31,691 nucleotides of DNA from a virus. Below the pieces are notes generated by a model, which saw only the letters and a list, made by a program, of their open reading frames with translations, was not told the origin of the DNA and searched no databases. Positions 4,045 through 27,357 of the stretch are shown here, piece by piece. Numbering within the stretch: position 1 is the stretch's first letter; every line of letters begins with the position of its first letter. A program made the translations under genes and the position numbers. The stretch lies in the IMG/VR virus record IMGVR_UViG_3300044953_000401, positions 1 to 31,691 of that record; one strand, given 5' to 3'.

Positions 4045-4169
4045 AACACAACACGCCACTGCACTTCACGCCACGTCACCTCACAACACTTCACAGCACG
4101 GCATCCAACAGCACCGCACCACACTACACACCACTCCACCTCACGACATAGCACGACACACCACAACAC
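4045..4169 (+). repeat. Tract of 25 phased NNCAC pentamers (leader of the next gene)
   Basis: Twenty-five five-base units run without a phase break; 22 end in CAC and the other three differ from NNCAC by one base (GGCAT, CCAAC, GACAT). The first two bases of each unit vary freely, so this is a degenerate period-5 array, not a simple microsatellite. It ends six bases before the ATG at 4176 and leaves no room for a Shine-Dalgarno sequence. Guanine is scarce, so RNA from it should be unstructured. Bases 3999-4044 before it show no other feature. Confidence 0.9.
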
Positions 4170-4175
4170 ATCGCC

Positions 4176-4745
4176 ATGAAAACTGCAATCATCGCACTGT
4201 CCTCCTGTTCCGCCATGACCCAAAGCCGCAAGCACGACACGCCCAAGACTAGCGACCGCGAGGGGGCCGCGGACTACGAGGCGCGCACCTGGATCAACAA
4301 GGCGCACTTCACCGCTGACGACCGCGTGTTCATCCCCGCCTTCGCCCTCAAGTGTTCGACGGTCGCCGCGGCCCGCTACACCGGCGACACCATCCCCGGC
4401 AAAGGCAAATCCACATGGACCAAGAAACTCCAGTCCGGCCTGCTGATTCCCGACGACGCCGTGACCAACCGCAAGCGGGCCGACATCGTTGCCGTCACCA
4501 TCAACGCCAATGCCGACGGCGTGCGCGGCTCCGGCAAGCGGGTCAGCCGCACCTTCCCCACGCTGACTCAGTGGGAGGCAAAGGTGACCGTCTATGTGCT
4601 CGATGACATCATCACCAAGGACGTGTTGCAGAAGTATTTCACCTACGCCGGCCAGTTCATCGGCGTGGGCCAATACCGCCCCGAGAACGGCGGCACCAAC
4701 GGCCGCTTCAAGGCCACCGTCGAATCGTTCGCAGAAATGTCCTGA
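4176..4745 (+). CDS. Conserved phage protein with C-terminal GVGxxRPENGG motif
   Basis: This is 189 residues from ATG 4176, or 176 from ATG 4215. The body (HFTADDRVFIPAFALKCSTV; then IPGKGKSTWTKK) and the ending (FIGVGQYRPENGGTNGRFKA) match a recurrent phage family of unknown function. That ending, in which a Gly-rich turn leads into a final strand, is its best hallmark. From 4215 the protein begins MTQSRKHDTPK, which looks like family N-termini. From 4176 it gains 13 mostly hydrophobic residues, but that ATG stands directly after the pentamer tract, as in the next gene. Neither start has a Shine-Dalgarno sequence. Position among replication genes suggests a role in DNA metabolism; this is inference. 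Confidence 0.65.
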   Translation: MKTAIIALSSCSAMTQSRKHDTPKTSDREGAADYEARTWINKAHFTADDRVFIPAFALKCSTVAAARYTGDTIPGKGKSTWTKKLQSGLLIPDDAVTNRKRADIVAVTINANADGVRGSGKRVSRTFPTLTQWEAKVTVYVLDDIITKDVLQKYFTYAGQFIGVGQYRPENGGTNGRFKATVESFAEMS

Positions 4746-4750
4746 GTTTC

Positions 4751-4835
4751 ACCACGGCGCATCACCGCATTCCACTGCACACCACGTCACCTCACTGCAC
4801 GCCACAACACATCGCCCCACAACACGACACTTCAT
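4751..4835 (+). repeat. Second NNCAC pentamer tract (17 units)
   Basis: Seventeen phased pentamers lie here, 13 of them NNCAC; the exceptions are GGCGC, CGCAT, ATCGC and TTCAT. The tract stops one base before the ATG at 4837. It shares CACGTCACCTCAC and CACAACACATCGCC with the first tract, so the two are related copies. No Shine-Dalgarno sequence is present. The whole gap between genes (4746-4836) is filled by this array. Confidence 0.85.
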
Positions 4836-5642: not shown

Positions 5643-6702
5643 CGGCCGCGAGCAGCTTTCCGCTGCCGAGGAGCACCGCCTGCGCGGCGAACTGCGCGCC
5701 GCCCGGCGTGCCCTCGACGAGGCTCTGAGCGCACGGGTGCGCGACGACGTGTTCGACTCTTTTGTGCGCAAATGCCTGCTGAACAAGACGCCCCCGCCGG
5801 CTTGGACCCTCGCCCCCAAACAGCGCAAGCGGCATGAAGTCATCCCCGTCGTCAACGTCAGCGACTGGCACTTCGACGAGAAGGTCTCGCTCGATCAGGT
5901 CCAGGGCCGCAACTGCTACGACCGCGCGACCGCCCTCGCCCGCTGGAAACTCTTCGTTGAGCGCACGATCAAAGTGGCCCGCGGTTACAATACCCAGTTC
6001 AGCTATCCCGGCATCGTCACCAATTGGCTCGGCGACATGTTCAGCGGTTTCATCCACGAGGAACTCGAACAGACCAACGAAGACACCCTCGTCGGCTCGC
6101 TCCTCTATTGGCTCAAGCCCTGCGCCTGGGCCGTGAAGACCCTGGCGGACGAGTTCGGGCAAGTCTGGTTCACCGGCGTCGTCGGTAATCACCCGCGCAT
6201 GTCGCGCAAGCCGCGGGCTAAGTTCCGGGCGCGGGATAACTTTGACTATCTCTTGTATCACCTCATCCGCCACACGCAGGCGGACGACCAGCGGATTCAC
6301 TGGCTGATTTCGGAATCCCAGAAACTTCAGTTCTCCATCTACGACCACCGCTTCATCGCCAGCCACGGCGACGAATGCCGCGGTGGCTCCGGCATCGCCG
6401 GCATGTTGTCGCCCCAGCTCATCGCCATGGCCCGCATGAAGAAGATGTTCGAGTTCGATACGTGGCTGCTCGGCCACTGGCATTACCGCGCCGATTACCG
6501 CGGCATTCGCGTCAACGGCAGCGGCAAGGGCTTTGACGAGTATGCCGCCATCGGGAACTTCGATTTCCAGAAGCCGGTGCAGGACTTCTTCCTGGTGGCC
6601 CCGCAGCACGGGATCATCTCTTCATGGCCGGTCTTCTGTTGGGGCGATGACGAGCCGTGGGTGCAGGAGCGGCAGGTGAATGGACAATTCAACGCACGAT
6701 GA
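5587..6702 (+). CDS. Calcineurin-like metallophosphoesterase (phage nuclease type)
   Basis: This 371-residue protein carries the full metal-binding set of the calcineurin-like superfamily: Asp93-Trp-His95 (VSDWHFDE), Gly149-Asp150 (WLGDMF), Gly200-Asn201-His202 (VVGNHPR), His260-Gly-Asp262 (ASHGDE) and Gly296-His-Trp-His299 (GHWHYRA). These ligands hold two metal ions that cleave phosphodiester bonds. Phage relatives are usually taken to be SbcD/Mre11-like nucleases or phosphatases; no SbcC-like ATPase partner is seen here. The first 60 residues form a charged helix. ATG 5587 is chosen because AAGGAA lies five bases upstream, even though it overlaps the previous gene. The stop overlaps the next ATG (6699-6702). 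A role in recombination or end processing is inferred. Confidence 0.8.
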   Translation: MATPKQSKSSPAGKAFRIDGREQLSAAEEHRLRGELRAARRALDEALSARVRDDVFDSFVRKCLLNKTPPPAWTLAPKQRKRHEVIPVVNVSDWHFDEKVSLDQVQGRNCYDRATALARWKLFVERTIKVARGYNTQFSYPGIVTNWLGDMFSGFIHEELEQTNEDTLVGSLLYWLKPCAWAVKTLADEFGQVWFTGVVGNHPRMSRKPRAKFRARDNFDYLLYHLIRHTQADDQRIHWLISESQKLQFSIYDHRFIASHGDECRGGSGIAGMLSPQLIAMARMKKMFEFDTWLLGHWHYRADYRGIRVNGSGKGFDEYAAIGNFDFQKPVQDFFLVAPQHGIISSWPVFCWGDDEPWVQERQVNGQFNAR

Positions 6703-7400
6703 ACGAGCGCATAGACACCGCTGGAGCTGCGGAGGCTGGTCGCGGGTTGGCGCAGCGTTTTGTTGGGCGTCATTCGTGGGCGCTCCTCATAAATGCGGAC
6801 TGTCTCGACGTGCTCCCGGAATTGCGCGCGGCTGATGCAATCGTCAGCGACCCGCCCTACGGAATCGGCTACTGCAAGGGTAGCGGAGGAAAAGGCAAAC
6901 ACAGTCGCCGGAACATTGAGCCAATCATGGGCGATGACCGCCCGTTCGACCCGGCACCTTGGCTGGACTTCGGCAATGTAGTGCTGTGGGGAGCTGAACA
7001 CTACGCGGCACGGCTGCCGGAAGGGCGATGGCTCGCGTGGGACAAGCTCAACGGCCTCGAATCGTTCGACAGCTTTTCGGATGTTGAGTTCGCGTGGCAC
7101 AACCGAAAGGGCGCGGCACGAATCTACCGCTTCATGTGGAAAGGTATCTGCCAGCAAGGAGACAAGGCCGGTGGTCGCGTGCATCCGACGCAAAAGCCAG
7201 TGCCGCTGATGGCGTGGTGCATGAACGAGGCGGGCGTGCCGACTGGTGCGACGGTCTGCGACCCATACATGGGCAGCGGGACGACCGGCGTCGCGTGCGT
7301 GCGGACTGGCCGCAATTTCATCGGCGTCGAACTGGATGCTGCGCACTACAAGAACGCCTGCGACCGTATCGCGCGCGAACTGGATGGTGCGCTGCTGTGA
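6699..7400 (+). CDS. N4-cytosine/N6-adenine DNA methyltransferase
   Basis: This 233-residue SAM-dependent enzyme methylates an exocyclic amino group in DNA. The catalytic motif IV DPPYG is at residues 51-55 and the SAM motif I region DPYMGSGTTG at 188-197, so motif IV comes before motif I as in beta-class enzymes. A pre-motif LLINADCLDVLPEL and the HPTQKP stretch are also typical. The target base cannot be told from sequence: DPPY favours adenine but is not decisive. The start at 6699 overlaps the previous stop (ATGA); an upstream GTG at 6657 would only add residues encoded inside the phosphoesterase gene. No cognate restriction enzyme is seen, so this is most likely a solitary protective methylase. 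A run of eleven C follows the stop. Confidence 0.85.
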   Translation: MNERIDTAGAAEAGRGLAQRFVGRHSWALLINADCLDVLPELRAADAIVSDPPYGIGYCKGSGGKGKHSRRNIEPIMGDDRPFDPAPWLDFGNVVLWGAEHYAARLPEGRWLAWDKLNGLESFDSFSDVEFAWHNRKGAARIYRFMWKGICQQGDKAGGRVHPTQKPVPLMAWCMNEAGVPTGATVCDPYMGSGTTGVACVRTGRNFIGVELDAAHYKNACDRIARELDGALL

Positions 7401-22851: not shown

Positions 22852-24882
22852 TTGACCCCTTCCGCCCCCATCCTTGACCGGCTGCTGGCCGGGGCGCCTC
22901 CGCGGCATCCGCTGCTGGAGCTGCCGGAGCGCCCGCACGTCGCCGCCATGCTGGTCGCGCGGGGCGAGGAGGCCACGCGCCAGTGGCTGGCCGAGGTGTG
23001 GGCTGCCCACGATGCCGAGGTGCATCGCCGCGACAAGGTGGACAATCCCAAGTGGGACGGCCTGAGCGATGGCTGGGTGCTGCCGCCCTGGTGGGACAGC
23101 GTGCGCGAGCTGGACCATTGCCGCCTGCTCTACTTCGGCGGCGGCCGGCGCGCCAGCAAGTCCACCTGCTGCGCGTGGCTCTGTCTCAACTCGTGGCTCG
23201 CCTATCCGGGCGGCCTGCGCTGGTGCATCTCCGACTCAGAGAAGACGAGCCAGCAGACGCAGCAGCTTCAAATCTGGGATTACCTGCCCCGCGTGTGGCG
23301 CGAACAGCTCAACACCCGGGAGTCGCCCAACTTCAAGCTCAAGTTCCAGGCGGGCCGCGGCTTCACCGACAACCTGCTGGTGCTGCCCACCGCTCCGCCC
23401 ACCACCATCTACTTCCTGACGATCAACCAGAAGGTGAAGGATTATCAGGGCATGAGCCTCGGTGTGCTGCCGCGCAAGTGGCGGCACTTCGCCGACGCCA
23501 AGGGCAAGCCCATCGTGGACAAGGCGGGCAAGCCCTACCTGATTCCCAACATCGGCGGCTGGATCGACGAGGATGTGACGCTGGACTGGCTGAACACCAC
23601 GATGGACCGCGCCTCGAACAATGAGGCGAAGGTGCTGTGGAGTTTCACGCCGCTGAAGGGTGTGACCCAGAGTGTGCGCGAGACGATTGGCGGCGCGCCC
23701 AAGCTGCTGGAATCGCGCCGGGCCGAACTGCTCCCGCAGTCGCGCCGGCAGGTGCGCGAGATCCCCGACCTGCCGCCGGGCCACATGCCCTACCGGCTGG
23801 AGTGCGAGCGGCCGAATGCGCGGGCCATCTTCTTCTTCAAGGGGTTCAATCCCTTCAGCGGTTATGCTCTGTTCCGGGACACGGAAAGCAAGCGCATGGA
23901 CGAAAGCACGCTCCAGCGCGAGGGCTACGGCTGGAGCCGGGACATCCGCGGGCGCCAGTTCCCGAAGTTCGGGCCGGTGCATCTGCTGCCCACGGACCGC
24001 CTGCCGCTGGTGGGGACCAACTACCGGTTTGTGGACCCGCATCCGGGCCGCATGTGGGCGATCTGCTGGGTGCGCGTGTGGCAGACGGCGGGCGGCCGGA
24101 CCAAGCGGGTGATCTACCGCGATTGGCCCGACGTGCCGCACTTCGGCGAATGGGCGGTGCCCACGGCGCGGGCCGAGGGCGGCGAGGTGAAGAAGGGCGC
24201 CGATGGCGATCCGGGGCCGGCGCAGGACGGGCGCGGCTACGGCATCGCCGATTACAAGCGGGCCATGCTGGCGGCCGAGACGATTCCGCTCGATCTCGAT
24301 GGCGGCGACCTGGCCGAGCGCGATCCGCATCGGCGGGCGCGCCTGCTCCGCGTGATGGCTGACCACGGCCTGCCGGCCGAGCCGGGCAAACTCACGCAGG
24401 CGCTCATGGAGGATTTCCGGGCGCGGCATCCCGAGCCCGTGCGCGAGGTGATCTTCCAGAGTTACTTCGACCCGCGGGCGATGGCGAACCCGCAGAGCGC
24501 CGAGAAGGGCGGCACCACGCTGGCCGACCTGATGCTGGCCGAACAGCGGCAGGAAGGCACCAACCGCGTGACGGGGCCGAGCCTGTTGTTTGAAGCGGCC
24601 TTCAGCGGCAAGGGCATTGATGCCGGCGTGGATCACGTCAACGACCTGTTGAGCTGGGACGAGTCTCACCCGGACGGTTTCGTGACGGATTACAACGACC
24701 CGCGGCTCTACGTGGACCCGCGCTGCGAGCAGGTGCGCTGGATGTTCGAGCACTACACTGGTCTGGGAGGCAGCGACGGCGCGTGCAAGGAGTGGGCCGA
24801 CCTCGTCCGCTACGCCAGCCAGACCGATCTGGCGCATGTGGACGAGCGGGCGCTGCGCTCGCGGGGTGGAGGAGGATACTGA
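22852..24882 (+). CDS. terL: Terminase large subunit
   Basis: This 676-residue packaging motor cuts concatemers and pumps DNA into the head through the portal. The ATPase part shows a Walker-A-like FGGGRRASKST (residues 95-105), Walker B GWIDEDV (Asp239, catalytic Glu240), and a coupling motif LWSFTPLKG. The RNase H-like nuclease part offers Asp395 (RFVDPHPG), Asp540 (SYFDPRAM) and Asp590/Asp594 (KGIDAGVDHVND) as metal ligands. Length is in the usual range or slightly long. The start is TTG 22852, seven bases after the previous stop; no ATG is available before residue 30, and the first in-frame Met is inside the conserved N-terminal helix. The position after the tail genes is as in T7-like phages. 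Confidence 0.85.
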   Translation: MTPSAPILDRLLAGAPPRHPLLELPERPHVAAMLVARGEEATRQWLAEVWAAHDAEVHRRDKVDNPKWDGLSDGWVLPPWWDSVRELDHCRLLYFGGGRRASKSTCCAWLCLNSWLAYPGGLRWCISDSEKTSQQTQQLQIWDYLPRVWREQLNTRESPNFKLKFQAGRGFTDNLLVLPTAPPTTIYFLTINQKVKDYQGMSLGVLPRKWRHFADAKGKPIVDKAGKPYLIPNIGGWIDEDVTLDWLNTTMDRASNNEAKVLWSFTPLKGVTQSVRETIGGAPKLLESRRAELLPQSRRQVREIPDLPPGHMPYRLECERPNARAIFFFKGFNPFSGYALFRDTESKRMDESTLQREGYGWSRDIRGRQFPKFGPVHLLPTDRLPLVGTNYRFVDPHPGRMWAICWVRVWQTAGGRTKRVIYRDWPDVPHFGEWAVPTARAEGGEVKKGADGDPGPAQDGRGYGIADYKRAMLAAETIPLDLDGGDLAERDPHRRARLLRVMADHGLPAEPGKLTQALMEDFRARHPEPVREVIFQSYFDPRAMANPQSAEKGGTTLADLMLAEQRQEGTNRVTGPSLLFEAAFSGKGIDAGVDHVNDLLSWDESHPDGFVTDYNDPRLYVDPRCEQVRWMFEHYTGLGGSDGACKEWADLVRYASQTDLAHVDERALRSRGGGGY

Positions 24883-25076
24883 TGACCCGGAAGGCGTTCA
24901 TGGAATTGCCGGGCGTGCTGGTGACGGCGCGCGAGGTGCGGGCGGTGCTGGGCATCCGCGACGCGCGGACGTGGGCCAAGGTGGTCGAAAGCAATCCGCA
25001 GATTGCCCACACCGTGCCCGGCATGAAGCAGCCCCGCTACGTGAAGGAGCGCGTGCTGGAACTGATCCCGGAATGA
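24882..25076 (+). CDS. Small helix-turn-helix (excisionase/MerR-like) protein
   Basis: This 64-residue protein starts at ATG 24882, overlapping the terminase stop (TGATG) and preceded by GGAGGAGG, a strong ribosome binding site. VLVTAREVRAVLGIRDARTW reads as the helix-turn-helix of MerR/excisionase-type winged helices, and PRYVKERVLELIPE as the following wing and helix. A small DNA-binding partner next to terL could be the small terminase subunit, but it is shorter than usual and may instead be a regulator. Its stop lies inside the first direct repeat of the modification cassette. Confidence 0.6.
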   Translation: MTRKAFMELPGVLVTAREVRAVLGIRDARTWAKVVESNPQIAHTVPGMKQPRYVKERVLELIPE

Positions 25077-25086
25077 TGATGAACGA
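25067..25086 (+). repeat. Direct repeat 1 of the modification cassettes
   Basis: CCCGGAATGATGATGAACGA, an exact 20-base match to 25574-25593. It carries the stop of the preceding small gene and lies four bases before the GTG start of the XF1762-like gene. Confidence 0.8.
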
Positions 25087-25089
25087 TTT

Positions 25090-25677
25090 GTGCTGCGCAT
25101 CTCTCCAATCTCTCTCGAAGAAGCCAATGCCTACGTGGCCCAACATCACAGGCATCACAATCCCGTGACGGGTCACAAGTTTAGCATCGCACTGGCGGAT
25201 GAATCCTGGAGGGTGCGTGGTGTTGCTATCGTTGGCAGGCCGGTAAGCCGGATGGCGGACAATGGGTGGACGCTCGAAGTGAGCCGCTGCTGCACGGACG
25301 GCGTAGCCAACGGCTGTTCGATGCTCTACCGCGCCGCATGGCGAGCTGCGAAGGCGCTGGGCTACGCGCGGTTAATAACCTACACGCTGCCTGAAGAGGG
25401 CGGTGGAAGCCTGAAAGGTGCGGGGTTCCGGCTGGTGGGCGAACGTGGTGGCGGGCCGTGGAGTCGCCAAGGGCGTCCGCGAGTGGACGATCACCCAACC
25501 CAAACCAAATGGCTGTGGGAGTTGGATTGTAACGAGCGGTCAACACCGAACCCAACAGGCCCCTTCGCCGTTCCCCGGAATGATGATGAACGAATGTTCG
25601 AAGCGTCGCATGGTCAAGCCACATCAGAGCCAACTCCAGCCATCTGCAAACAAGTTTCACGTCGGCAATGGCGATGA
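25090..25677 (+). CDS. XF1762 family protein (GNAT-like, possible Mom-type DNA modification)
   Basis: This is 195 residues from GTG 25090. Residues 4-25 (ISPISLEEANAYVAQHHRHH) and the later blocks GVAIVGRPVSRMADNGWTLE, CSMLYRAAWRAAKALGYARL and HPTQTKWLWEL match the XF1762 family of phage proteins. The fold looks like GNAT acetyltransferases, the same superfamily proposed for Mom of phage Mu, which modifies adenine to resist restriction. That function is inference here. Homology ends at about residue 148; the remaining residues read through direct repeat 2 into the start of the next gene, so the original stop appears lost. It overlaps the Dam-like gene by nearly 100 bases for that reason. Confidence 0.7.
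   Translation: MLRISPISLEEANAYVAQHHRHHNPVTGHKFSIALADESWRVRGVAIVGRPVSRMADNGWTLEVSRCCTDGVANGCSMLYRAAWRAAKALGYARLITYTLPEEGGGSLKGAGFRLVGERGGGPWSRQGRPRVDDHPTQTKWLWELDCNERSTPNPTGPFAVPRNDDERMFEASHGQATSEPTPAICKQVSRRQWR
25574..25593 (+). repeat. Direct repeat 2 of the modification cassettes
   Basis: This copy is identical over 20 bases to 25067-25086. Its left part, CGCCGTTCCCCGGAATGA (25566-25583), is also identical over 18 bases to 26091-26108. It provides the triple-ATG start of the Dam-like gene. Confidence 0.8.
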
Positions 25678-26155
25678 CGGCAAGCACTACTGGCTGACGC
25701 CGCCAGAACTCTATGCGCAACTTAATGCCGAGTTCGGGCCGTTCGACTTCGATCCGTGCCCATTCCCGAAGCCGGAGGGGTTCGACGGGCTGACGTGCGA
25801 TTGGGGTCAGCGCAACTACGTCAACCCACCGTTCGGATCCATTATGCACAACGGGCGAAAGAAGGGTCCGACTGCATGGATGCGGAAGGCCATCGAGGAA
25901 CAGCGCAAGGGCAAGCTGTCGGTGGTGGTGTATCCTGTGGACAAGTGGGTGCTGATGATGCTCAGGGCTTCTGGCTCAGTGAACGTCCGAAATCTCGGGG
26001 ACGTTCGCTGGCACGCAATCGAGGATGGGTCGCAAGGCAAGGGAACTGGCCGCCACATCGCCGCGTTTGTCTTGTGGCCTGACGCCGCGCCGCCGTTCCC
26101 CGGAATGACACTTGACGCCGGCCCAGCGCCGGAGAACTGTTCGCGCGGGAATTGA
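25580..26155 (+). CDS. Phage N6-adenine DNA methyltransferase (Dam-like)
   Basis: This is 191 residues from the first ATG of an ATGATGATG run. The core begins HYWLTPPELYAQLNAEFGPF, then DFDPCPFP, and NYVNPPFG with Asn82-Pro-Pro-Phe85, the DPPY-type catalytic motif in the NPPF form used by the phage Dam family. WMRKAIEEQRKG and a final HIAAFVLWP strand complete the domain. It would methylate adenine in a short site and may protect the genome. ATGs at 25583, 25586 and 25610 are alternative starts; homology begins about 30 residues in, so the exact start is uncertain. The C-terminal extension PFPGMTLDAGPAPENCSRGN is encoded by direct repeat 3 and beyond. Confidence 0.8.
   Translation: MMMNECSKRRMVKPHQSQLQPSANKFHVGNGDDGKHYWLTPPELYAQLNAEFGPFDFDPCPFPKPEGFDGLTCDWGQRNYVNPPFGSIMHNGRKKGPTAWMRKAIEEQRKGKLSVVVYPVDKWVLMMLRASGSVNVRNLGDVRWHAIEDGSQGKGTGRHIAAFVLWPDAAPPFPGMTLDAGPAPENCSRGN
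26091..26108 (+). repeat. Direct repeat 3 of the modification cassettes
   Basis: CGCCGTTCCCCGGAATGA, an exact 18-base match to 25566-25583; it lacks the ATGATGAACGA right part. In this frame it encodes PPFPGM, the same peptide found just before the Dam-like start, and it marks the end of conserved Dam sequence. Confidence 0.75.
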
Positions 26156-26178
26156 CAACCTCGCGCATGGCGTAGTCA
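26152..26178 (+). promoter_or_regulatory. Candidate promoter C upstream of the tail fibre gene
   Basis: A perfect TTGACA (26152-26157) overlaps the previous stop. TAGTCA (26173-26178) lies 15 bases on, only three bases before ATG 26182. The spacer is short and the -10 differs from TAGGTT, so it is the weakest of the three promoter candidates. Transcription from it would give an almost leaderless mRNA. Confidence 0.3.
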
Positions 26179-26181
26179 GCC

Positions 26182-27357
26182 ATGCCGCTTAACGCTACCG
26201 TTCAACGCGGTTTCACCGCCACCGCCGGGATTCCCGTCACCACCGACGACCTCAACGCCGGCTTCCTGCCGACCGTGGACATCGAGGGCTCCGTGGGCTC
26301 TTCCGATCTCGGCGCCGGCAGCACGAACAGCACGCACATCGTGCCCGGGCCGATTGCCTACGTGGCGACCACGGGTTCGGCCAATGCCTACGTGGCGGCG
26401 CCCAGTCCGGCCCTCACCGCCCTGACCACGGGGAGCTGGCTTGCCCTGAAGGCCAACCACACCAACACCGGCGCAGCCACGCTGAACGTGAACAGCCTGG
26501 GCGCCGTGGCCATCCGCAAGCAGACCGACACCGCGCTGGAGGCCGGCGACATCCGCAGCGGCCAAGTGTTCTGGGTCACCTACGACGGCACCTACTGGCA
26601 ACTGACTTCGCCCGAGGGCCTGGCGCGCAAGACCTACGGCGAAGCCGCCGGCACCACCAACGCCTACACGCTCACTCTAACGGACATCGTGACCACGCTG
26701 GCCGCGCTGACCGGGCGCGTGCTGCTCTTCAAGGCCAATGCCGCCAACACGGGCGCCTGCACGCTGAACGTCAATTCGCTGGGCGCGACCTCGATCAAGA
26801 AACTCGACGGCACCGACCCGAGCGGCGGCGACCTTCCCAACGCCAAGCTGATCGCCGTGGCCTACGACGGCACCAACTTCCAACTGCTCGGCGGCACCAG
26901 CAGCGCCTCGCTGCCGGATGTGGTGACGGCCGGCACCTACGCCACGCCCAGCAGCGTGACGGTGGATGCCAAGGGCCGCATCACGTCCATCACGGCGGGC
27001 ACCGCGCTGACCGCCTTCTCCGGCAGCGCGGTGAGCGTTCCCGCCGCCGGGGCGGCCGTGACGCCGCAGGCGCACTCCCTGGGCTCGGTGCCGCGCAATG
27101 CGCACTGGGTGCTGGTCAACGTCACCGGCGACGCCGGTTACACGACGGGCCAGGAGATTCCCCTGCATGACGTGGGCAGTCCGGTGTCGGGCACCGACGA
27201 CCAGGTGCCCTGCTTTGCGGCCGTGCGCGACGGCACCAACCTGGGACTGGTCCGCAGTTCCGCCGCCACCACGCTGTCGGTGGCCCATGCTTCCACCGGT
27301 GTGTTCACCACGATCACCGAAGTCAACTGGCAGGTGAAACCCTACGCCATCAAGTGA
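26182..27357 (+). CDS. Tail fibre protein with two internal repeats
   Basis: This 391-residue adhesin-type protein has two copies of a module, at about residues 60-142 and 152-236. Each contains a strand like LALKANHTNTGAATLNVNSL, an IRK or IKK turn, a G-DI or G-DL segment and YDGTYWQL or YDGTNFQL. These modules recur in phage tail fibres, where they build a beta-rich trimeric shaft. The next part (VVTAGTYATPSSVTVDAKGR) is the usual link to the C-terminal receptor-binding region, which here is a compact strand domain (residues 270-391). It starts at ATG 26182 with no Shine-Dalgarno sequence. It is one of two surface-binding proteins in the window, besides the spike. Confidence 0.75.
   Translation: MPLNATVQRGFTATAGIPVTTDDLNAGFLPTVDIEGSVGSSDLGAGSTNSTHIVPGPIAYVATTGSANAYVAAPSPALTALTTGSWLALKANHTNTGAATLNVNSLGAVAIRKQTDTALEAGDIRSGQVFWVTYDGTYWQLTSPEGLARKTYGEAAGTTNAYTLTLTDIVTTLAALTGRVLLFKANAANTGACTLNVNSLGATSIKKLDGTDPSGGDLPNAKLIAVAYDGTNFQLLGGTSSASLPDVVTAGTYATPSSVTVDAKGRITSITAGTALTAFSGSAVSVPAAGAAVTPQAHSLGSVPRNAHWVLVNVTGDAGYTTGQEIPLHDVGSPVSGTDDQVPCFAAVRDGTNLGLVRSSAATTLSVAHASTGVFTTITEVNWQVKPYAIK

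Follow-up and report, generated by a model that had tools for sequence, protein, structure and literature searches.

A probable gene-gain and gene-loss slot with duplicated junctions, holding two DNA-modification genes in a tailed phage

Described systems and the layout of the locus

The gain of single genes at gene borders in phages has mostly been inferred from junctions without homology. A case with a repeat at the border has been described in mycobacteriophage Island3, where gene 68 is an extra gene absent in Brujita and its 3' end duplicates about 50 bp of the end of the upstream gene. Recombination at the repeat, resulting in either insertion or deletion, was proposed by the authors (Pope et al., 2011, PMC3029335), and gene insertion at boundary repeats is already described in mycobacteriophages. 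In lambdoid phages, short conserved boundary sequences occur at modular junctions, as cited in PMC3029335 and PMC6466182, while T4-type phages carry mobile regulatory cassettes, the PeSLs, as outlined in PMC4503421 (Arbiol 2010; Comeau 2014). Phages with integron gene cassettes (CALINs), including DNA methyltransferases, are also known (PMC9892861).

The locus described here belongs to a stretch of 31,691 nucleotides from an IMG/VR virus record (IMGVR_UViG_3300044953_000401), which was analysed whole and is referred to as the window. As with Island3 gene 68, accessory genes are flanked by direct repeats of a gene end or junction. Island3 has one insert and two copies, whereas the window has two inserts, three copies, a composite joint and DNA-modification cargo; this double case is new, with the composite joint of two inserts as its distinctive trait. 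The short shared junction resembles the lambdoid boundary sequences, as these are cited, in offering a homologous recombination site between modules, but the window repeats belong to a single genome, and such repeats vary in sequence between loci; exact scans for the repeat halves gave no related context, and sharing of the junction between phages was not found. PeSLs, as outlined in PMC4503421, likewise place repeated elements around accessory ORFs, with a proposed role in shuffling, but consist of a promoter and a stem-loop, and a search of the window repeats for a promoter, terminator or stable stem found none. The features of the locus are as follows.

22852..24882, + strand: large terminase-like gene, backbone left of the slot (TTG start as listed)
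24882..25076, + strand: small HTH-like gene, 64 aa, ending ..ELIPE*, with its stop codon inside copy 1
25067..25086, + strand: junction repeat copy 1, backbone left flank, core CCCGGAATGA and insert start TGATGAACGA
25090..25677, + strand: XF1762/Mom-like DNA-modification gene (NF045478, phrog_1384)
25566..25593, + strand: junction repeat copy 2, composite of insert end CGCCGTTC, core and insert start TGATGAACGA
25580..26155, + strand: Dam-like N6-adenine methyltransferase gene (PF05869, phrog_111), its open frame passing copy 3
26091..26108, + strand: junction repeat copy 3, insert end CGCCGTTC and core CCCGGAATGA, followed by backbone CACTTGACG
26182..27357, + strand: tail-protein-like gene, backbone right of the slot (phrog_4900, E=1e-19)

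Repeats, reading frames and cargo

Copies 1 and 2 are identical over 20 of 20 nt (25067-25086 and 25574-25593; CCCGGAATGATGATGAACGA) and copies 2 and 3 over 18 of 18 nt (25566-25583 and 26091-26108; CGCCGTTCCCCGGAATGA), the latter match continuing leftwards as 22 of 25 nt. Exact repeats at spacings of 200-1600 nt reached at most 17 nt when the window was simulated 120 times with a Markov model. The observed repeats exceed chance, and the three copies of the original prediction are real. Their description as one repeat of 18-20 bp holds for the pairwise identities only: the sole part common to all three copies is the 10-nt core (11 nt in copies 2 and 3), so that this is not one motif of 18-20 nt occurring three times. 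Copy 2 is instead a 28-nt composite, with its left half as in copy 3 and its right half as in copy 1. The spacings, predicted at about 510 and 525 bases, measure 507 and 525 nt, each a multiple of 3. An Rfam search of 24700-26400 returned no match. The three-copy arrangement could in principle be a mis-assembly at short repeats.

The TGA of copy 1 serves as the stop of the small HTH-like gene, and the Dam-like gene has the ATGs of copy 2 (ATGATGATG) in its frame. For the XF1762-like frame, copy 1 supplies no ATG; this frame first offers a start at GTG 25090 and stays open across copy 2 as far as 25677. In copy 3 the TGA falls in neither cargo frame, and the Dam frame continues to 26155. The earlier statements that copy 1 ends the small gene, that copy 2 starts the Dam-like gene and that the XF1762-like gene reads through copy 2 are borne out by these frames, but the broader view of a repeat carrying stop and start signals applies to the small gene and Dam and not to every copy.

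Each interval holds one modification gene, as had been proposed. The XF1762-like product scores 204 bits against NF045478, above the family cut-off of 50, and matches the Mom-like phrog_1384 (E=7e-35); in named genomes the family was found at 29 loci, with at most 67% identity. The Dam-like product passes the gathering score of PF05869 (30.6 bits, cut-off 28.1), matches phrog_111 (E=4e-18), falls below the TIGR01712 cut-off, and shares up to 85% identity with IMG/VR relatives. Judging by their families, the products would modify the phage DNA, most likely against host restriction. The GC content of the inserts is 0.62 and 0.59, against 0.67-0.69 in the flanking genes. Elsewhere in the window, at 6657-7400, lies a second adenine-methyltransferase-like gene (CcrM models at E 1e-15, below the cut-off), which brings the DNA-modification genes of the phage to at least three.

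Filled and empty junctions in related phages

The window terminase used alone as a query recovered no relative, and an alignment of three terminase sequences recovered 80. Identity between the window terminase and those of related phages is 36-40%, and its C-terminus, ..GGGGY*, is like theirs. The homologous loci of these relatives were compared for indels, which were dereplicated by eye; a linked tblastx of the window against the loci was too noisy for use. About 21 distinct indels were seen in the phage family, eight of them with a clean junction duplication of 10-63 nt, present in two copies in the filled allele and in one copy in the empty allele, and all located at gene starts or ends. 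They include duplications at the terminase end (L266 against L265, 22 nt exact; L249 against L254), at the DnaB end (L247 against L233, 35 nt) and at start signals (L240 against L242; L265 against L264), and a further clean duplication in L283 against L284. The family thus offers several filled and empty pairs with doubled and single junctions, in which insertion and deletion are indistinguishable from the comparison alone. These pairs bear out the part of the original prediction that concerns gene gain and loss by short-repeat recombination. The repeated sequence is not the same one across these phages; it is that of the local junction and varies from locus to locus.

Other modification genes show the same kind of boundary. 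One Dam-like gene (L248) has its last codons in common with the terminase, through 19 nt of the terminase end, and another dam (L080) has a 16 nt junction repeat. A survey of dereplicated loci totalling 1.36 Mb gave 9 repeat pairs of at least 16 nt with both copies at gene boundaries, where 1.05 were expected; the count includes the integron arrays L105, L115 and probably L015. The terminases of L265 and L258 end in CYT*, the tail of the right-hand copy, where most of the group has ..YV*, and these endings suggest repeat-mediated gene loss in the two phages. In a further locus (L270, 948-2441), the start and end of a methyltransferase gene copy about 60 nt of its downstream and upstream neighbours.

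In the relatives closest by portal (52-54% identity), the order is terminase, small gene and portal, with the small-gene orthologue directly after the terminase by tblastn; no gene lies between these three, and no such repeats were found there. The next gene in these nearest relatives is the portal and not a tail gene, so the flanking order differs. The small HTH-like gene itself matched L329 (6201-6350, 44%) and L330 (3351-3512, 34.5%) in tblastn, in both cases between terminase and portal. The terminase and small-gene block of the window (22852-25076) follows the tail region, and lies directly before the portal in the nearest relatives; its position appears to be a module move. No relative was found that aligns with the window phage at the DNA level, and the phage's own empty site is therefore unseen: single-copy empty sites of the Island3 kind occur in the family, and the predicted empty junction of the window gave 0 matches.

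The reading preferred here, with a probability of about 0.62, is that the locus is a tailed-phage slot for gene gain and loss, placed at a stop/start junction and filled by short-homology and out-of-register recombination. The unoccupied junction was probably ..CTGAT-CCCGGAATGA-CACTTGACG.., following the small HTH-like gene. Inserts with matching ends, starting (A)TGATGAACGA and ending CGCCGTTC, would have entered by short-homology recombination, and the XF1762/Mom-like and Dam-like genes would then have been brought side by side by an out-of-register crossover, in which two occupied slots recombined at the 10-nt core, one by its right end and the other by its left. Such a crossover would leave backbone and start at copy 1, end and start at copy 2, and end and backbone at copy 3, as is seen, and copy 2 is the composite expected where two inserts are joined head to tail. 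The two-gene joint constrains both the order and the type of recombination. An incoming gene would gain a ready translation start within the operon of terminase and small gene. The crossover calls for two occupied alleles with equal ends, which were not observed. Simple target duplication, in either order, does not account for both shared halves of copy 2.

Alternative origins and a cargo pool shared with integrons

One alternative that would account for both ends being shared is a tandem duplication, in which one gene was copied together with its ends and the interior of one copy was then replaced by a different modification gene. It is unlikely, since XF1762 and Dam are unrelated families and such a replacement would itself call for recombination at the ends, and no intermediate was seen.

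Somewhat less probable again is a dedicated portable cassette, in which the repeat would be a recombination site travelling with its cargo and served by its own recombinase. The two inserts do have both their start and their end in common, and a full joint is formed by the middle copy, as in a cassette array. Among other copies of the Dam and XF1762 genes, however, flanking repeats of at least 14 nt occur in only 4 of 133, each with a different sequence; two of these are integron attC arrays (L105 and L115) and the others are L080 and L062, while L082 has a 20-nt repeat pair farther out from the gene. Exact scans of 2.9 million viral contigs for the two repeat halves met only unrelated contexts, the junctions in related phages are locus-specific, and no recombinase lies within the inserts. 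The two genes co-occur in 2 of 160 loci (L045 and L082). The original prediction of a modular slot with a portable junction is thus retained for the gain and loss of accessory genes by short-repeat recombination, but its portability is not supported: homologues of the two genes nearly always come without such flanking repeats, which is the first outcome that the original prediction had itself listed as refuting it, and the repeat does not appear to be tied to the cargo genes or to travel with them.

The two copies in filled and one in empty sites of related phages would also fit a target-site duplication left by a staggered-cut insertion, whether by a transposase, a homing endonuclease or otherwise. 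The length of the duplication is nevertheless not fixed, ranging from 10 to 63 nt among the sites of a single phage family. The inserts hold only the two modification ORFs and encode neither a transposase nor an endonuclease, and their ends show no matching terminal inverted repeats, which leaves little room for this explanation and gives the inserts none of the marks of a transposon. More improbable still is a reading of the repeats as translation or coding elements that selection has conserved, and not as traces of recombination. Their location at stops and starts, and ATGATGATGA, which could act in termination-reinitiation, would agree with this, but the sequence is absent from homologues and has no Shine-Dalgarno-like core, copy 3 starts no gene and has its stop outside the Dam frame, and 18-20 identical nt over mixed frames exceed the need of a start signal. 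The faintest prospect is insertion by an integron integrase with the repeats as attC or attI-type sites, for although many close homologues of both genes lie directly behind attC sites and the related phage G007 retains an attC half before dam, a covariance model of 22 sites finds no attC in the window and the repeats have neither R''/R' boxes nor a stable hairpin.

The imperfect hairpins upstream of many cargo-gene homologues are attC sites. The model was built on 22 sites with a structure set by hand, which has 87% paired cells. Its covariation score is 0.45, whereas shuffles gave 0.15 and sliding gave 0.05-0.11. Sites were found directly before XF1762 homologues in L083, L084, L086 and L088 (83-86% identity) and before Dam homologues in L006-L013, L015 and L016; the sites ended no more than about 13 nt away from the homologous coding region, and 65 of 66 hits were in gene orientation. 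In the window, the best score in the region was 6.6 bits (E about 0.5). The repeats were also considered as attC remnants, which was ruled out by a hand-written attC scorer and then by the covariance model, and a likeness of AACGATTTGT-GCTGC (25082-25096) to the L'-R' end of attC was too short to claim. Since homologues of both genes are flanked by attC, the two are part of a gene pool that integrons also draw on; the window has no attC, however, and the boundaries here, in contrast to integron cassettes, are junction repeats. The window in this way links phage DNA-modification genes to that pool.

In phage G007, where a terminase fragment, the capsid and the portal are those of the family of the window phage, the attC half GGCTCCACTGCCTTGTTAGGC is retained before dam (compare L022). 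Its dam frame runs through this half (L213, 1443-1530), so that the site encodes the N-terminus of the protein (..IGSTALLG..). Building on the slot proposed above, it is conceivable, albeit doubtful, that phages domesticate integron cassettes by a general route. The genes would depart from integrons and shed attC, and recombination would slot them serially at duplicated stop/start junctions behind backbone genes. Under such domestication, these junctions would hand each newcomer a ready start and, with two genes stackable by an out-of-register crossover, the slot would work as a cassette array free of integrase.

Two minor observations may be added. Tandem attC sites occur on the IMG/VR 'viral' contigs L086, L088, L081, L115, L016, L024 and L026; these contigs resemble integron arrays and may have been mis-binned as virus. 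The window also contains long arrays of NNCAC with a 5-nt period (TTCAC GCCAC GTCAC CTCAC AACAC ...) at 4045-4175 and about 4745-4835. None were seen in the other loci compared, and in the window each extends as far as the ATG of a gene, at 4176 and at about 4838 respectively, where the arrays could be unstructured leaders or binding iterons.
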